Positions 29,848-62,497 of a stretch of DNA of 63,306 nucleotides are shown one piece after another. The notes below the pieces were generated by a model, which saw only the letters and a list, made by a program, of their open reading frames with translations, ran no database searches and had not been told where the DNA came from. The number at the start of each line of letters is the position of its first letter. The stretch's first letter is position 1. The translations under genes were made by a program, and so were the position numbers. The stretch comes from Actinomycetota bacterium (GTDB taxonomy: Bacteria > Actinomycetota > Acidimicrobiia > IMCC26256 > VFJJ01): contig VFJJ01000019.1 of the NCBI GenBank assembly GCA_009886115.1, positions 1 to 63,306 on the forward strand, in the 5' to 3' direction.

Positions 29848-31218
29848 TCACAGGCCATAGAGCTCGACGGCGTTGGAGCCGAGGATGCGGACCTTCACCG
29901 CGTCGGTGAGCGCCGGGTAGCCGAAGCGCTCCTGGTACTCCTCGGAGATGGAGAAGGTGCGGAAGGCGTCGATCTGGGGCTGCGGCGAGCCGTACCAGAT
30001 CGAGTCGGTTCCCCACAGGATGCGGTCGGGTCCGAGGTTCACGAGCAGCTTGCCCAGGACGTGTGCCGCGGCATCGAGGTCGTGCGCCAGGTTGAACCAG
30101 GTGCTGCCGAGCTCGGCGTACACATTGGCGCCCGGGCCGATCCCCTCGGCCGCCAGCGAGCCGATCAAGCGGTCGACCCCGCGTTGCTCGCCGAGCGCAC
30201 GAGTCGGGTCGTACGGGCCCTCGGGTGAGGACGTCTCCCATCCCGAGTGGTAGACGACGATCCGAGCCTCGGGGTGGTCGCGCGCCGCCGGTCCGACGTC
30301 GACGGGGGAGGCTGCCGGGTCCTCGCCGCTCAGGCCCTTGTGCACGGCCACGATGGGCCGGTCGAGCTCGACGGCTCGGGCGAGCATCGCCGCCCCCCGT
30401 TCATCGTCGAGTCGGAAGGCGCCGGGTGCATGGGTGTAGGTCTTCCACGCGGCGACGGGATACGTGGCGGCGTCGTGGCTCATGGCGTCGAGCACGGCGG
30501 CGAGCTCACCGGTCGCCGGGAACACGGGCGCCTGCAGGAGGAGGCGCCGACCGCCACCTCCTGCGCCGGAGCCGGAGCCGGTCCCGGTGCCGGCCTCTGA
30601 GTCGGCCAGCGTCACGCGAGCCTGGTCCATGATGTCGAGCGCCAGGGCGCTGGTGCGGTCGGCGATGGGAAGCCCCGAGAGCACGCCGACATGCGTCTGG
30701 CTCTGGTCGAAGACGAGATCGAGGAACGCCTCGAGCGCGAAGCACGCGGCCACGCTCCCCCGGGGGCAATCGGCCTGCGGGAAACCGGCACCGAACCCGC
30801 CGTCGGCGTTGCGTTGCTCGTCGAGGAAGTGGAGCTGCACGTCGACGATCATCCCGCCCGGCAGCGGAGTATCGAGGACGGTCGTCGCGGCCTCGGGGTC
30901 GATCACCGTCGCCGCTGACGTGCTCGACGTGGTGCGCGAGGCGGGGGTATCGAAGGTCCCGCCCGGCGATGACGTGGGGAGCGTCGACGATCGGCCGTTG
31001 GTGGCCGCTCGCTCCTCGTTGGTGCAGGCGGCCAAGGCCGAGAGCACCGCAGCCGATGCCGCCGCCGAGCGGAGCACGTCGCGGCGCGACACCGCGCCAC
31101 GACGCACCAGCTCGTCGATCTCGATCCGGGCCCGGCGCAGGGCCTCGGCCACGACCGGCGTCAGGGGAACCGGTTCGTACTCGTCACTCGACCGCCGTCC
31201 GAACCCGAGCAGGCGCAC
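29848..31218 (-). CDS. Tat-exported amidohydrolase_2 lipoprotein
   Basis: 456 residues. A long N-terminal region is followed by SRRDVLRSAAASAAVLSALAAC (about 44-65), a twin-arginine signal with lipobox Cys, so the enzyme is probably folded before export and anchored outside. A Ser/Thr-rich linker precedes the barrel: DVQLHFLDEQ (metal-site start), WKTYTHAPGAFRLDD, VAVHKGL, VVYHSGWE and the final LWGTDSIWYGSPQPQ (Asp). A microsatellite-encoded insert GTGTGSGSGAGGGG lies near residue 215. An external metal-dependent hydrolase or decarboxylase is expected. The upstream ridA is 36 bp away on the same strand. Confidence 0.8.
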   Translation of the reverse strand: MRLLGFGRRSSDEYEPVPLTPVVAEALRRARIEIDELVRRGAVSRRDVLRSAAASAAVLSALAACTNEERAATNGRSSTLPTSSPGGTFDTPASRTTSSTSAATVIDPEAATTVLDTPLPGGMIVDVQLHFLDEQRNADGGFGAGFPQADCPRGSVAACFALEAFLDLVFDQSQTHVGVLSGLPIADRTSALALDIMDQARVTLADSEAGTGTGSGSGAGGGGRRLLLQAPVFPATGELAAVLDAMSHDAATYPVAAWKTYTHAPGAFRLDDERGAAMLARAVELDRPIVAVHKGLSGEDPAASPVDVGPAARDHPEARIVVYHSGWETSSPEGPYDPTRALGEQRGVDRLIGSLAAEGIGPGANVYAELGSTWFNLAHDLDAAAHVLGKLLVNLGPDRILWGTDSIWYGSPQPQIDAFRTFSISEEYQERFGYPALTDAVKVRILGSNAVELYGL

Positions 31219-36205: not shown

Positions 36206-37426
36206 CTACAGGATCGCGCCGCTGATCTTGTGCTCGATGATCTCGTCCATCGACAGGCCCAGCTCGGTGAGCACCTCATCGGTGTGCTCGCCGTGGCCGG
36301 GGGCGGGCCGGAGCGAGGACGGCGTCTCGTCGAACTGCACGGGGTTGGCGACCAGCCCGAGCGGCTTCGAAGCACCGGGGAGCTCGACGGGCAGCACGTA
36401 GCCGTTCGCCGCGACCTGCGGATCGTCGTGCACGTCGAGCGGCGTCTGGTACACCGCCCACACGCCCTTCACCGTCTCGAGGGCCTCACGCCACTGGGCC
36501 ACGGTCCGCTGCCCGAACACCTCGTCGAGCGTCTCGACACAGGCCCTGGCGTTCTCAGCCCGGGCCCGCGAGTCGACGAAGCGCGGATCGTCGATCAGCT
36601 CGGGACGGCCGATGTGCTGGCACAGGTCACCCCAGAAACGGTCGGATTCGAGCATCACCAGGCTGATGAAACGGCCGTCCTGGGTGCGGTACGTGTTGAC
36701 GATCGGGTTGGGCATGTCGCGCCGGTCGCGACCGCCACCGGCGGGCATGTCGAAGAGCTTGGCGGCCACGATGAACGGCGACATCGCCCACATCGCCGTG
36801 CCCAGCAAGGAGATGTCGACGATCTTGGCCTCGCCGGTGCGCTCACGGTGGAAGAGCGCCGCGGCGATCCCCCCGGCGATCGTCTGCGCCCCTTGGAGAT
36901 CGCCGAACGCCGGAGTCTGCATGATCGGCCACTCGCGGTCGCCCGGCGTCAGCTGCACGCCTGCCGTGCCCCGGGCCCAGTACGAGGCGCCGTCGTAGCC
37001 GCCCTTGCTTGCGTCGGGGCCACGGATGCCCTGGCCGGTCCCGCGGGCGTAGATGATCTTGGGGTTGCGGGCCCGGATGTGCTCGACGTCGATCTTGAGG
37101 CGGGAGCGGGGGCCGGGCAGGAAGTTCGTGAGGAACACGTCGGCCGTCTCGACGAGGCGGTACAGGAGCTCGCGACCGGCGTCGGTGCCCATGTCGATCC
37201 CCACGGAGCGCTTGCCCCGGTTGGGTTGCTCGATCATGAAGTTGGGTATGTCGGCGCCGCCGGGGACCAGCCCCGAGGTGATCAGACCCCGCTGTGGATC
37301 GCCGCTCTCGGGGTGCTCGATCTTGAGCACGTCGGCTCCCCAGTCGGCGAGCACGGCGCCGGCTGCTGGCACGAACGTCCACGACGCCACCTCGACCACC
37401 CGGATACCGCTCATCACGTCGCGCAT
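36206..37426 (-). CDS. Family III CoA-transferase (CaiB/BaiF)
   Basis: 406 residues from the ATG at 37424-37426, six bases after GAGGAG. GIRVVEVASWTFVPAAGAVLADWGADVLKIEHPESGDPQRG is the family N-terminus. The catalytic Asp is in KIVDISLLGTAMW. GRSVGIDM-like NRGKRSVGIDMGTDAGR and the C-terminal APGHGEHTDEVLTELGLS are also standard. It transfers CoA from a donor thioester to a carboxylic acid in the cytosol. It follows the GrdB/PrdB-like gene by 65 bp on the same strand and may form a two-gene unit with it. Confidence 0.9.
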   Translation of the reverse strand: MRDVMSGIRVVEVASWTFVPAAGAVLADWGADVLKIEHPESGDPQRGLITSGLVPGGADIPNFMIEQPNRGKRSVGIDMGTDAGRELLYRLVETADVFLTNFLPGPRSRLKIDVEHIRARNPKIIYARGTGQGIRGPDASKGGYDGASYWARGTAGVQLTPGDREWPIMQTPAFGDLQGAQTIAGGIAAALFHRERTGEAKIVDISLLGTAMWAMSPFIVAAKLFDMPAGGGRDRRDMPNPIVNTYRTQDGRFISLVMLESDRFWGDLCQHIGRPELIDDPRFVDSRARAENARACVETLDEVFGQRTVAQWREALETVKGVWAVYQTPLDVHDDPQVAANGYVLPVELPGASKPLGLVANPVQFDETPSSLRPAPGHGEHTDEVLTELGLSMDEIIEHKISGAIL

Positions 37427-37491
37427 CGTCAACTCCTCGTCGGGCCGGCTCAGGCGTCAACGTAGGCGATCACGCATGCCGTCGTCATGGA

Positions 37492-38742
37492 TCAACCCGA
37501 TCCCGTGCCCGCGCGCAGATGGTCGTGGCGGCTCATCGGCAGCAGGTAGAACCACAGCGGATGGGGCGCGCCGCCGGCCTTCATGGCGGTCTGCGCGCGC
37601 TTCATGACCCGGCCGGCCTCGGTCTGGTCGACGTACCAGCCCTCGGTCTGACGGGCTGCGGGCACGTGAGCGACGAGTGACAGCGCAGCCTCCTCGTAGA
37701 ACGCCCTGATGTCGGCGGCACACGAGATCGGATCACCCGGGATCGCCGCCTCCTTCCACGCCAGCCCGTCGGCCACGGCAGCGAACCTCCCGAGCGCGTC
37801 GGGGACCTGCTCGGCCGTGAGCACCTTGCCCAGCGACGTGCGACCGGTGCGCTCGAAGGTCCGCCGATACGCGGCCAGCAGTCCTCGGGCCTCGTCGACC
37901 GCCGCTGGCACCCCGGCATCGAAGCGAGGCGGGAGCGGGCACGACAGGGCCTCGTCGGCCTCGGCGACGATGATGTCGGGGAAGTGAGCGAGCACCGGGA
38001 TCTCGTCGGCCGGGGTGGCCAACAGCGCGAACGCCGCCGCCAGCACGCCGTGCTGGTACTCGGGATCAAGGGGACGGCCCAGCGGGCGGCCCAGCGGGAA
38101 CTCGCAGTAGAGCGCTCGCGGGGCCCGCATACGTCGGGCCTGACCGAGCACCGATGCCAACGCCACCGTCGCGATCCCGGCGGCCTCGAAGATCTGTGCG
38201 AGCACACCCACGGTGCGCGTGCACAGCGGTCAGACGGGGGTGAGCAGGACGACGTCGACCTCGTCGTCGATGAGCAGCTGCGCGGCGGCCGGGCCGGTGT
38301 CGAGGCGCATGGTCGAGAGCTCGTGATCGAGTTGGGCGCCCATGAACGAGATGTGCCGCGGAGCCACCGAGCCGATCACGCCGCGACCCGCCAGCTCATG
38401 GAGACGATCGATCGGGAACACCACGTTGGCGTCGGCCATGAAGCCGCTGCGATCGAAGTTGGGCGACATGTGGCCCAGGCCCAAGCCCGACATGTGGCCC
38501 AAGCCCGAGCCCGAGCCGCCGTCGATGGTCGTGGGGAGCGGGTCGGCGATCACGGTGAACGACTGATCGCCGGCCATCCAGCGCAGCGAGCCGTCGGTAC
38601 GGAGCCCGGCCGTGGTGACGATCGCCACGCGGGCCTCGGCCAAGGGCTTCGGCGCGGTGTACGCCACCGTCGGGAACTCGTAGACGGCGAGACCGTCGAC
38701 CGCCGCTCGAACCTTTGCGTCGCCACCGTGATCGTCGCCCAT
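37492..38742 (-). CDS. GrdB/PrdB-like reductase, probable selenoprotein (Sec171 at in-frame TGA)
   Basis: Read through the TGA at 38230-38232 this is one 416-residue protein (ATG 38740-38742, GGGGAGG upstream). The N-part has the GrdB/PrdB blocks ARVAIVTTAGL, HMSPNFDRSGFMADANVVFPIDRL and GVIGSVAPRHISFMG. Around the TGA it reads LLTPV-U-PLC-TRTVGVLAQIFEAAGIATV, so the TGA falls at the U of a UxxC redox motif (Sec171, Cys174). The downstream part continues in the same frame to a normal stop and has no ribosome-binding site of its own. A SECIS-like hairpin follows the TGA. A low-complexity insert GGSGSGLGHMSGLGLGHMS lies at 75-93. Relatives reductively cleave glycine, betaine, sarcosine or proline in clostridia; here the substrate is unknown. 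The alternative is a nonsense-mutated pseudogene. Confidence 0.78.
38194..38232 (-). promoter_or_regulatory. Candidate bacterial SECIS element after the TGA
   Basis: Directly after the TGA (38230-38232) the transcript can fold as CUGUGC/GCACAG (38221-38226 with 38194-38199), a 2x2 internal loop, then GCGCACC/GGUGUGC (38212-38218 with 38202-38208; one G-U) with apical GUG at 38209-38211. The apical loop begins 18 nt after the UGA and contains the GU expected of SelB-binding hairpins. Confidence 0.6.
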
Positions 38743-40112
38743 GGGGCCTCCCCGCCGAGGGTCGAGGCTATCGCTCGCGGGCCTGAGAGAATGGGGTCGT
38801 GACATGCCGGCGCTGGTGCCATCCCGAGTGCTGATTCCCGCGCTGGCTCCCGTCTCCACACGGGCCCCGAGCCGGACATGATCGTCCCCCGGTCGTTTCG
38901 CGTGCTGCGCCACCGGGACTTCGCGCTCGTCCAGGTGGGCAACGCCGTGTCGAACCTGGGGACGTGGATGCAGTACGTGGGTCTGGGCTGGGCGACCCGC
39001 GAGCTCACCGACTCGACGCTCGTGCTCGGTCTGGCCTTTGCGTCGCAGTTCACCCCGTTCCTGTTCGTGACCCCCATCGCCGGCGTCGTCGCCGATCGGT
39101 ACGACCGGCGCCGCGTCGTCCTCGCCATGAACCTCTTCATGGCCGTCCCCCCGATCGTGATCGGGCTCATGGTCGCCCGTGGGACGATCACCGTGGCCTG
39201 GCTGCTCGTGCTCAGCCTGATCCTGGGGACGGCCAACGCCATGGCCGCCCCGGCCTCGCAGGCGGTGGTGCCCGCGCTGGTCCCGGCGGCGGAGCTTCCG
39301 CAGGCGGTCGGGTTCCAGACGACGGCCATGAACCTGGCTCGCATCGCCGGACCCTCGGTCGGAGGGGTGGCGATCGGAGCGTGGGGCCTCGACTGGGCCT
39401 TCTACCTCAACGGGCTCAGCTTCCTGGCCGTCGTGGTGGCCTGGGCCGCTGTACGTCCCGAGGGGACGCGCGCCACGGGCGTCGCCGCGGAACCCTTCCT
39501 CTCCAGCCTCCGCCGGGGCGCGGCCTACGCCCGCAGCGAGACGGTGATCCGCCGGCTGGTGATGCTGTCCGGCGTGCTGGCGCTGTTTCCATACCATGCG
39601 GCGCTGATGCCGGTGATCGCTCGGGACGTGCTCGACGGGGGCGTCTCGGCGTACGGCATGCTGTCGTCGGCCACCGGTTTCGGTGCCGTCGTCGGGGCCT
39701 TCATCGCCACCGAGATCAACACCGATCGTCAGCGACGGTTGACGATCACCAACGGCGCCATGGCCGCTGGCCTGGCCATCGTGGCCTTGTCGTTCTCGCG
39801 CAACCTCACGCTCTCGGTGTGTTGCCTCGCGGTGTTCGGGCTGGGATTCTTCTCGTTCATGGCCCCGTCGACGACGGTGATCATGATGATGACGCCTGAC
39901 GGGTACCGCGGTCGCGTCCTGGGCCTGTTCACGATGGTCAACACCGGCGGCGTACCGATCGCAGCCGTGACCGGTGGCCTGCTCAGCGCCTGGCTCGGCC
40001 CGACGACGACCGTGCTGATCGGAGGGACCGCCATGGCGTCCTTCGCGATCTGGTTCGCCGCCTCCCGGTCACTCCGGCTGCTCGGAGCGCCAAGCCCGCC
40101 GGGCGAGGCCGA

Positions 40113-44378: not shown

Positions 44379-45668
44379 TCAGCGCGGACCCACCCCGGCC
44401 GCAGCCCTCGTGATCTGGCGCCAGGCATCGAGATCGGAAGCGTCGGAACGACGCCCGACCCGGGTCACCGTGTCGACGTCGGTGGCCTCGGCCCGCAGCG
44501 CGGCCGACGTGCACCGCTCCTTGGGACGGGTGGCGAACGGGTCGAAGTGATAGTGGCGCATGGCGTTCTCGTGGGTGATCTTGTTCACCACGTCATCGGG
44601 GACACCTTCGAACAACACCGCCAAGCTCTCGGGGCCGTTGGGCCACGAGGAATCGGAGTGGGGGTAGTCGGACTCCCAGCAGAGGTTGTCGATGTTGAAC
44701 TCGTCGAGCAGCTTCACCCCGACCCGATCGTCGATGAAGCAGCAGAGGATGCGATCACGGAAGAGCTCGGACGGGGTCATGCCGTTGAGGAGCTCGGCGC
44801 CGATCCAGGCATTGTGACGGCGATAGACGTGCTCGGCTCTCTGCAAGAAATACGGGATCCATCCCACATCGCCTTCGGTCAATGAGAAGCGCAACGTTGG
44901 GAACCTCGTCCAGAATTCAGCCCAGATAAGGTCGGCCATCGTGTAGATAGACATGCTTGACGAGATAGCCATGGGAACACTCAGTGGAGCATCGGGAGTG
45001 GTCATCGCTCCCTTTGACGACGACCCCACGTGGCAGCACAGCACCGTCTCGGTGTCGACACACGCAGCGAAGAGGGGGTCCCATTCGCCGCTGTGGATCG
45101 ACGGCGCTCCGATGGCCGACGGGTTCTCGGAGAACGTGACCGCATGGCAGCCCTTGGCCGCGAGGCGGCGGACCTCCTTGGCCGCCTCTTCGACGTCGAA
45201 GTACGGCAGCACTCCACAGGGGATGAACCGATCGGGATGGGCGCCGCACCACTCGTCGACGTGCCAGTCGTTGTACGCCTTGACCATGACGAGGTTGACG
45301 TCGCGATCGGGGCCCTGGTTGAGCACCTGGCCGGTGAAGCCGGGCCAGTTCGGGAAGTTCAACCCGGCCAGGACCCCACCGGCCGACATGTCGCGCACCC
45401 GCTCGTGAACGTCGTAGCACCCCGGGCGCATCTCGTCGTACCGGTTCGGGTTGACGTTGAAGAACTCGGGCGGCTTCCCGGCCACGGCGTTCAGCCCGAG
45501 GTTGCGGCCCTTCAGCTCGCCGTACCACCACTGCTGGTAACCATGCTCGTCGGTCTCGACGCGGGGTGCCCGGTCGCGGTAGCGCTCGGGCACGTGGGCG
45601 TGGAACATCTCGGCCGGTTCGGCGATGTGATCGTCGACCGAGACGAGGATCATGTCGTCGGCGTTCAT
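44379..45668 (-). CDS. Amidohydrolase_2 family hydrolase
   Basis: 429 residues. Metal motif SVDDHIAEPAEMF, then YDEMRPGCYDVHERVRDM, AYNDWHVDEWCG, ENPSAIGAPSIHSGEWDPLFAACVDTETVLCCHVGSSS and WESDYPHSDSSWPNGP, all shared with the paralogues at 9254 and 56835. The C-terminal 50 residues (FATRPKERCTSAALRAEATDVDTVTRVGRR) are extra and probably disordered. The start overlaps the stop of the acyl-CoA ligase by 4 bases, suggesting that ligase and hydrolase act on the same acid or its CoA ester. Confidence 0.86.
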   Translation of the reverse strand: MNADDMILVSVDDHIAEPAEMFHAHVPERYRDRAPRVETDEHGYQQWWYGELKGRNLGLNAVAGKPPEFFNVNPNRYDEMRPGCYDVHERVRDMSAGGVLAGLNFPNWPGFTGQVLNQGPDRDVNLVMVKAYNDWHVDEWCGAHPDRFIPCGVLPYFDVEEAAKEVRRLAAKGCHAVTFSENPSAIGAPSIHSGEWDPLFAACVDTETVLCCHVGSSSKGAMTTPDAPLSVPMAISSSMSIYTMADLIWAEFWTRFPTLRFSLTEGDVGWIPYFLQRAEHVYRRHNAWIGAELLNGMTPSELFRDRILCCFIDDRVGVKLLDEFNIDNLCWESDYPHSDSSWPNGPESLAVLFEGVPDDVVNKITHENAMRHYHFDPFATRPKERCTSAALRAEATDVDTVTRVGRRSDASDLDAWRQITRAAAGVGPR

Positions 45669-60342: not shown

Positions 60343-60782
60343 GCCTGAGCGCGAGGTCGAGCGAGCACCACGGCGGCGCGGGCGCAGTCCCGGGTGCCGT
60401 CGTGGCGGCCGAGGGCGACATCGAGCTCAACCCGGGCCGGGATCGGGTGACGGTCCACGTCGAGAACACCGGCGACCGGCCCGTGCAGGTGGGCTCGCAC
60501 TTCCACTTCGCCGACGTGAACGCGTCGCTGGCCTTCGACCGCAGCGCGGCGACGGGCTTCCGGCTCGACGTGCCCGCGGGCACCGGCGTGCGCTTCGAGC
60601 CCGGCGTCGAGCGCGACGTCACGCTCGTGCGTCTCGCCGGGGCCCGGGTCGTGCCCGGGCTGCAGATCCGCCGAGGGCATGGCGGCGGCGCGACCGACCC
60701 CGGCGCGACCGACCCCGGCGGGCAGATCCGCCGAGGGCACGGCGGCGGCGCGACCGGCGCCGTGGGGACGTCCGACCGATGA
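60339..60782 (+). CDS. ureB: Urease beta subunit with repeat-derived C-terminal extension
   Basis: 147 residues from a GTG overlapping ureA. Core: [72 protein letters not shown]. The domain normally ends near VVPGLQ (about 109). The remaining 38 residues come from a 60-bp DNA repeat (60662-60696 against 60722-60756, one mismatch) with an internal 15-bp repeat, giving [11 protein letters not shown] twice. The stop overlaps ureC by 4 bases. Confidence 0.93.
60662..60756 (+). repeat. Direct repeat inside ureB
   Basis: A 35-bp segment repeats at a 60-bp period (one mismatch), and within the spacer gcgaccgaccccgg repeats at a 15-bp period. All periods are multiples of three, so the frame is kept. 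Confidence 0.88.
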
Positions 60783-62497
60783 GGATCTCGCGAGCGCGCT
60801 ATGCGGCGCTGTACGGGCCGACGGTCGGCGATCGGGTGCGGCTGGCCGACACCGATCTGTGGATCAGCCCCACCGAAGATCGCAGCGGCACCGGCGCCGC
60901 CGGAGGGCCCGGCGACGAGGCGGTGTTCGGCGGCGGGAAGGTGATCCGCGAATCGATGGGCCAGGCGACCACGAGCACGGTCGATCTGGTGATCACCGGC
61001 GCGCTGGTGCTCGACCACTGGGGCGTCGTGAAGGCCGACATCGGCGTGCGCGCCGGGCGGATCGTCGCTCTGGGCAAGGCCGGCAACCCCGACGTGATGG
61101 ACGGCGTGCACCCCGATCTCGTCATCGGCCCGTCGACCGAGATCATCGCCGGGGAGGGGCTGATCGTGACCGCGGGCGGCGTCGACTGCCACGTGCACCT
61201 CATCTGCCCGCAGGTTCTCGACACCGCGCTGGCGTCGGGGATCACCACGGTGATCGGGGGCGGAACCGGCCCCGCCGAAGGCACCAAGGCCACCACGGTC
61301 ACGCCCGGTGCCTGGTACCTCGCTCGCATGCTCGAGGCCCTCGATGGCTGGCCGGTCAACGTGGCCTTGCTGGGCAAGGGCAACACGGTCTCGCAGACCG
61401 AGCTCGACGCTCAGCTGCGCGGTGGGGCGGCTGGTTTCAAGCTCCACGAGGACTGGGGGACGACGCCCGCGGCGATCGACGCCTGTCTCACCGCCGCCGA
61501 CCGCTCGGGCGTGCAGGTGGCCATCCACACCGACACGTTGAACGAGGCCGGCTTCGTCGCCGACACCCTGGCGGCCATCGCCGGGCGGTCGATCCACACG
61601 TACCACACCGAGGGAGCGGGAGGCGGCCATGCCCCCGACATCATCACCATCGCCTCGCACCCCAACGTGTTGCCGTCGTCCACCAACCCCACTCGGCCCC
61701 ACACCGTCAACACCCTCGCCGAGCATCTCGACATGCTCATGGTGTGCCATCACCTCAACCCGCAGATCCCCGAGGACCTGGCCTTCGCCGAGAGCCGCAT
61801 CCGCCCGTCGACGATCGCTGCCGAGGACCTGCTGCACGACCTCGGGGCCATCTCGATCATCGGGTCCGACTCGCAGGCCATGGGACGCATCGGCGAGGTG
61901 TGGACGCGGACCTTCCAGACGGCCCACGTGATGGCCCGCCGATTCGGCGCGCTGGCCGGTGAGCCGGTGGCCGGGGCCGACAACCTCCGGGCCCGGCGGT
62001 ACGTGGCCAAGACGACGATCTGCCCCGCGGTGGCCCACGGCCTCGACGGCGAGGTCGGTTCGGTCGAGCCCGGCAAGTTGGCCGACCTCGTCGTGTGGGA
62101 CCCGGCTTTCTTCGGCGTGAAGCCCAAGCTGGTCATCAAGTCGGGGATGATCGCCTGGGCCGCCATGGGTGACGCCAACGCGTCGATCCCAACGCCGCAG
62201 CCCGTCCTGGCCCGCCCCATGTTCGGTGCTGCGGCCTCCGTCGCACCCGAGCTTTCGGTGGCCTGGGTCGCGCCGCTCGCGCTCGACGACGGGTTGGCCG
62301 ATCGGATCGCGGTGCGCCGCCGACTCCTGCCGGTGCGCGACACCCGTCGGCTGAGCAAGACCGACCTGCCCGAGAACACGGCCATGCCTCACATCGAGGT
62401 CGAGCCCTCGACGTTCGCCGTGCGCATCGACGGCGAGCTCGTGGTCGAGGACCCCGTGGCCGAGCTGCCCATGGCCCAGCGCTACTTCCTCTTCTGA
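60779..62497 (+). CDS. ureC: Urease alpha (catalytic) subunit
   Basis: 572 residues, normal length. Nickel-site residues are all present: His138 and His140 (DCHVHLICP), carbamylated Lys221 (GFKLHEDWG), His250 (AIHTDTLNE), His276 ([13 protein letters not shown]), Asp364 (GSDSQAMGR), and the flap acid/base His324 in [10 protein letters not shown]. The flap Cys is present as MVCHH. The enzyme should be active if the accessory genes are complete. It overlaps ureB by 4 bases, and ureF starts 2 bases after its stop. Confidence 0.97.

Follow-up and report, generated by a model that had tools for sequence, protein, structure and literature searches.

Comparison with homologues very strongly supports the decoding of an in-frame UGA, at positions 38232-38230, as selenocysteine (Sec) in a minus-strand gene of the 63,306-nt stretch of Actinomycetota DNA analyzed in this study (contig VFJJ01000019.1, hereafter the window). 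In all likelihood, this is a working selenoprotein gene in which a bacterial SECIS element directs the insertion of Sec171 into a two-domain protein of the PrdB/GrdB superfamily, and the protein is probably not a D-proline or glycine reductase. SelB and tRNA-Sec would decode the UGA as Sec under the direction of a hairpin located just downstream.

An in-frame TGA conserved among homologues

The gene (37492-38742, minus strand) encodes 416 amino acids between ATG 38742 and a terminal TGA at 37494-37492, and a probable ribosome-binding site read directly from the sequence (GGGGAGG, 38747-38753, minus strand) lies 4 nt upstream of the start codon. The internal TGA (38230-38232) corresponds to residue 171 in the motif TPV-U-PLC-TRTV, where it forms the U of a UxxC pair with Cys174 (38221-38223), a residue that does not vary among the 30 aligned proteins, even in those with Ala at the Sec position. 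Direct reading of the minus strand agrees with the original prediction that two ORFs in a single frame are split by this TGA alone; the gene coordinates given there also stand, with the strand, which had been left unstated, now assigned. Of the two pieces, described as about 170 and 239 codons long, the first does contain 170 codons 5' of the TGA, while the second has 239 codons as listed from GTG 38211 but 245 when counted from the TGA. Any gene caller that takes every TGA as a stop splits the protein, and such genes are therefore easily missed or mis-annotated.

Homologues were drawn from a sample of the phylum, from relatives, and from two proteobacterial genomes. The same codon is TGA in 23 further full-length homologues from many families (48-57% identical to the window protein) and in three distant homologues (32-34% identical). 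Examination of this column, which had been proposed as a check, thus found U in the homologues, C in one, and A in two: with the window gene included, TGA is present in 24 full-length and three distant genes, while a single gene (L029) has Cys, encoded by TGC, and two genes (L086 and L087) have Ala. The distribution of the long form is patchy, spanning many families of one phylum and a proteobacterium.

The two Ala forms, found in genomes G444 and G448, are close relatives in which Ala replaces Sec, Cys174 is kept, and the hairpin has been lost. The combination of Ala at the Sec position with a retained Cys174 suggests either that Sec is dispensable for whatever keeps these two genes or that their role has changed. 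An additional homologue (L088, G492:C1) is reduced to residues 210-405, with the Sec-containing upstream half missing from the adjacent DNA, and is possibly a broken or recombined copy. The window protein itself has, at about residues 68-92, an insertion of approximately 15 residues in which the unit GLGHMS recurs, encoded at 38470-38540, where the DNA contains short tandem copies (GACATGTGGCCCA); in that form, the insertion is absent from all 29 aligned relatives.

Hairpin and selenocysteine machinery

A bacterial SECIS-like hairpin occupies positions 38194-38229 on the minus strand. Its outer stem pairs 38221-38226 with 38194-38199 (+4 to +9 with +31 to +36 relative to the TGA), its upper stem pairs 38212-38218 with 38202-38208 (+12 to +18 with +22 to +28), and its apical loop is a GUG at 38209-38211 (+19 to +21). 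The minimum free energy (MFE) of the hairpin is -21.0 kcal/mol (z = -3.2 compared to synonymous codon shuffles). As PMC13188914 quotes it, the bacterial SECIS model calls for a loop of 3-9 nt with a G in loop positions 1-2, an upper stem of 4-16 bp, a distance of 16-37 nt from the UGA, and an MFE of -7.5 or lower. The window hairpin agrees with this model on every point, with its 3-nt GUG loop, 7 bp, 18 nt, and -21.0 kcal/mol, and the expectation that a hairpin beginning 3 nt past the TGA with an apical GUG 18 nt downstream would resemble a bacterial SECIS element was borne out. When a SECIS element was sought in the window with Rfam, no match reached gathering level.

Across the 27 long-form Sec genes (the window gene, 23 relatives, and three distant homologues), 160 of the 162 cells defined by six upper-stem pairs are paired. 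Codon shuffles gave a mean of 89.0 (sd 5.2), and no shuffle out of 1000 reached the observed count. Among the three non-Sec genes, 8 of 18 cells are paired, which is close to the shuffle level of 9.5. The pair +15:+25 alternates between C-G and U-A, with five double compensatory changes on the tree, at least four of which are forced by well supported branches, while the outer stem is not conserved across homologues. Short PrdB-like genes carry a hairpin at the same place with quite different stem sequences, and 129 of their 150 stem cells are paired compared to 85.4 (sd 4.7) in shuffles. Judged from these alignments, the hairpin is evolving as RNA.

The source genome, a draft of 224 contigs that is 95.6% complete, contains the components needed to read such a codon. 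A search for selA, selB, selC, and selD, which the original prediction had suggested, recovered selA, selB, and selD together with tRNA-Sec(UCA), the latter at 66.2 bits and also by ARAGORN; selB scores above its cut-off and is adjoined by selA, both on contig C73, while selD is located on contig C57. Among the other Sec-form genomes tested, 19 of 22 contain a tRNA-Sec. The three in which it was not detected are drafts of 140-370 contigs; selA is present in two of them, and the third is 70% complete. A tRNA-Sec is also present in the genome with the Cys form (L029), whereas neither tRNA-Sec nor selA was found in the two Ala-form genomes (64% and 80% complete).

These observations bear on two other readings of the TGA. 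The first, a nonsense-mutated pseudogene or a sequencing error at 38230-38232, would fit a stop codon that interrupts the frame in a draft assembly, but it does not account for the recurrence of the same TGA in 26 homologues, many families among them, for a stem conserved through repeated compensatory changes, or for the Sec machinery in the genome. Because the codon is conserved and the hairpin covaries, this reading is in effect refuted, and its probability is considered negligible. Each of the refuting conditions named in the original prediction was examined, and all of the outcomes favor a selenoprotein. The second would explain a conserved gene with an in-frame TGA by a code in which TGA specifies Trp or by programmed readthrough. 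It is equally hard to credit, since the gene's own terminator is TGA, tRNA-Sec and selA, selB, and selD are all encoded in the genome, and the non-Sec forms substitute Cys or Ala and lose the hairpin. Decoding as Sec is taken as established on comparative grounds.

Domain architecture and phylogeny

The predicted protein comprises two domains. The first, a Rossmann-like domain of the PrdB/GrdB type, extends over about residues 20-250 (37993-38685, minus strand; model pLDDT 90) and is matched by TIGR04483 and PF07355. TIGR04483 is the best NCBIfam family (E 7e-31), with a score of 107.5 bits that falls below the 300-bit equivalog cut-off. The match to PF07355 (GRDB superfamily) narrowly exceeds gathering (23.5 bits versus 22) and covers only profile positions 276-345 of 347, and TIGR01918 (selenoprotein B) scores 34.8 bits, below its cut-off of 65.45. 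The long forms have 71 columns with conservation of 90% or more, and two annotated PrdB proteins both carry the same residue in 42 of them; the columns in common include Sec, Cys174, H91, D97, D104, R113, H130, E186, R209, and Q230.

The second domain is helical and spans about residues 268-405 (37528-37941, minus strand; model pLDDT 93), with a Cys that is nearly invariant in the alignment, Cys268 (37939-37941, minus strand), at its start. No NCBIfam family reaches this domain of approximately 140 residues, and the single Pfam match to the protein is confined to residues 96-168. A sequence profile search of the PDB with the window protein returned nothing significant. Fold searches with the whole model gave generic Rossmann-like matches, the best being VIA (Z 7.3, 141 residues, rmsd 3.9). 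With the C-terminal domain alone, the best match had a Z of 3.5 over 77 residues (rmsd 3.5), indicating that no solved structure resembles it well, and Foldseek returned no match below an E of 3, although the absence of a match is no proof of a new fold. A stand-alone 86-aa protein that matches only this domain (about 43% identical) is encoded elsewhere in the same genome (L060:3174-3434, contig C143), where its gene adjoins that of an Rv2258c-like methyltransferase; a survey of 296 genomes from the phylum turned up no second free-standing copy.

In the phylogenetic tree, the 27 rows of the long clade (24 Sec, one Cys, and two Ala) are grouped by a branch supported at 100/99. The three distant two-domain forms lie beside the long clade, while the short forms and true PrdB are found across the branch.

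Relationship to known selenoproteins

PrdB (TIGR04483; e.g., Terrisporobacter pTPHSE2 and Peptoclostridium acidaminophilum) shares the catalytic domain and the UxxC position with the window protein and is likewise Sec-encoded. The window protein differs in being only about 33% identical over half of the query, in adding the C-terminal helical domain, and in having no PrdA partner that could be found. Short PrdB-like selenoproteins of the same phylum (e.g., L030-L050) have the same motif and hairpin position but lack the C-terminal domain. In the case of GrdB/GrdF/GrdH selenoprotein B (PF07355, TIGR01917/01918), it is the Sec-containing C-terminal part of GrdB that aligns; however, the window protein stays below the TIGR01918 cut-off and matches only 70 of 347 Pfam positions.

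Selenoproteins of the PrdB type with a UxxC motif have been known from sea water since 2005 and are among the most abundant selenoproteins in sea-water metagenomes, with 42 in the Sargasso Sea (PMC1088965) and 235 in the Global Ocean Sampling (GOS) data (PMC2398784). These marine proteins are Sec-containing and PrdB-like, as is the window protein, and were named "proline reductase PrdB" by homology (PMC1088965, PMC2398784). The suggestion in the original prediction of an "undescribed" reductive step is therefore too strong for the family. In contrast, the two-domain form, the apparent lack of a PrdA partner, and the members with Ala were not found described in the literature available, and no PrdB appears among the fusions described in the selenoprotein surveys consulted. 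A literature search combining Acidimicrobi with selenoprotein and selenocysteine returned no papers. Retention of selenoproteins is rare among aerobic bacteria, according to a 2026 review (PMC13188914); here, strong purifying selection on the SECIS accompanies the retention of a selenoprotein in many families of one phylum and in a proteobacterium, and most of these hosts have a heme-copper oxidase.

Function

The original prediction described the protein as a GrdB/PrdB-like reductase. The UxxC selenoprotein, the GrdB/PrdB-type domain, and the bacterial SECIS were upheld, while a glycine- or proline-type reductase was not, given that no PrdA/GrdE partner was found in the 18 genomes searched, that the score is far below the cut-off, and that the protein has an extra domain. 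In D-proline reductase, a pyruvoyl group on PrdA acts together with the Sec of PrdB (Kabisch et al. 1999, cited in PMC1088965). A family search for a pyruvoyl subunit with PF09338 returned nothing, but it did not match any control genome either; it was replaced by a search with a PrdA sequence for which a positive control was available. This search found no PrdA relative in any of 18 genomes (the source genome and 17 others with PrdB-like genes) and recovered the control record, with the qualification that a very diverged pyruvoyl partner could escape a search based on one sequence. A heme-copper oxidase is encoded in 16 of the 17 genomes tested, including the source genome.

Without a detectable subunit to supply the pyruvoyl group, and with a heme-copper oxidase in most genomes, it is unlikely on these genomic grounds that the long-clade protein is a D-proline or glycine reductase, and the apparent lack of a PrdA partner argues that the label "proline reductase" is wrong for at least the long clade. 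A genuine subunit B of D-proline or glycine/betaine/sarcosine reductase, as in anaerobic clostridia, might be expected from TIGR04483 being the best family and from the conserved columns, Sec and Cys174 among them, that it has in common with true PrdB. It is nevertheless very improbable, given the wide shortfall from the equivalog cut-off, the additional domain, the lack of a prd-like gene cluster, and the PrdA and oxidase results.

In the mechanism proposed here, a single chain contains both domains, and the reactive pair would be Sec171-x-x-Cys174 of the PrdB-like one. The Sec selenolate may attack an electrophilic or oxidized small molecule lodged between the domains, after which Cys174, perhaps aided by Cys268, would resolve the selenium adduct to a selenenyl sulfide that a cellular thiol system could re-reduce. 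Since the gene usually stands alone and the helical domain is part of the same chain, the long-form enzyme is probably self-contained.

It is quite possible, without being the favored reading, that the protein is not a catabolic enzyme but resembles thioredoxin in serving general redox or detoxification purposes, reducing peroxides, disulfides, or electrophiles. The UxxC motif, the frequent presence of a heme-copper oxidase, a stand-alone gene with no operon common to the clade, and the patchy distribution are all consistent with such a role; on the other hand, the conserved PrdB-type residues that surround the motif (H91, D97, D104, R113, H130, E186, R209, and Q230) look like a substrate pocket and not like a redox motif alone, and a CoA-transferase gene lies directly downstream here and in two other genomes (see below). 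A more specific proposal is considered rather unlikely: that the long-clade proteins are self-contained selenoenzymes of aerobes that need no pyruvoyl group, with the helical domain replacing the substrate-activating subunit and Sec driving reductive bond cleavage. If this were true, the cleavage would take place within oxidative catabolism and would be a reaction for which no enzyme of the superfamily is known.

Gene neighborhood

A family III CoA-transferase gene (36206-37432, minus strand; PF02515, 302.6 bits) begins 59 nt downstream of the Sec gene and is a possible operon partner. Of the neighbors named in the original prediction, this CoA-transferase is indeed directly adjacent, whereas the P450 (24876-26108) and the amidohydrolases (29851-31218 and 44382-45668) are located 6-12 kb away. 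Comparison of the loci found no neighbor common to the long clade. Family III CoA-transferases occur near seven loci. A CoA-transferase gene is also directly downstream in G431 and G404, but the proteins are only about 30% identical to that of the window; the CoA-transferase in the window looks orthologous (55%) to the copies in the two Ala-form genomes and to no others. In these two genomes, a 45% identical amidohydrolase is found, together with the CoA-transferase, within a few kb of the gene. The adjacent CoA-transferase and nearby acyl-CoA genes hint at an oxidative or acyl-CoA catabolic setting.

Metallo-beta-lactamase-fold genes were observed beside the Sec gene at six loci (L108, L109, L114, L115, L118, and L120) from two families (f84 and f85) of one order; these genes are 55-86% identical between loci. 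Another metallo-beta-lactamase/ODP-like gene (L065:7412-8758 and L067:6072-7325) abuts a short PrdB-like selenoprotein gene on its upstream side. These genes were considered as a clue to a shared operon, which was rejected; the f84/f85 type and the L065/L067 type are unrelated by BLASTP. Elsewhere in the window, an Rfam match to the 5'-ureB sRNA (RF02514, 72 bits; 60930-61224, minus strand) runs antisense to the urease alpha gene (60779-62494, plus strand), within whose bounds it falls, and may merely reflect conserved urease coding sequence.
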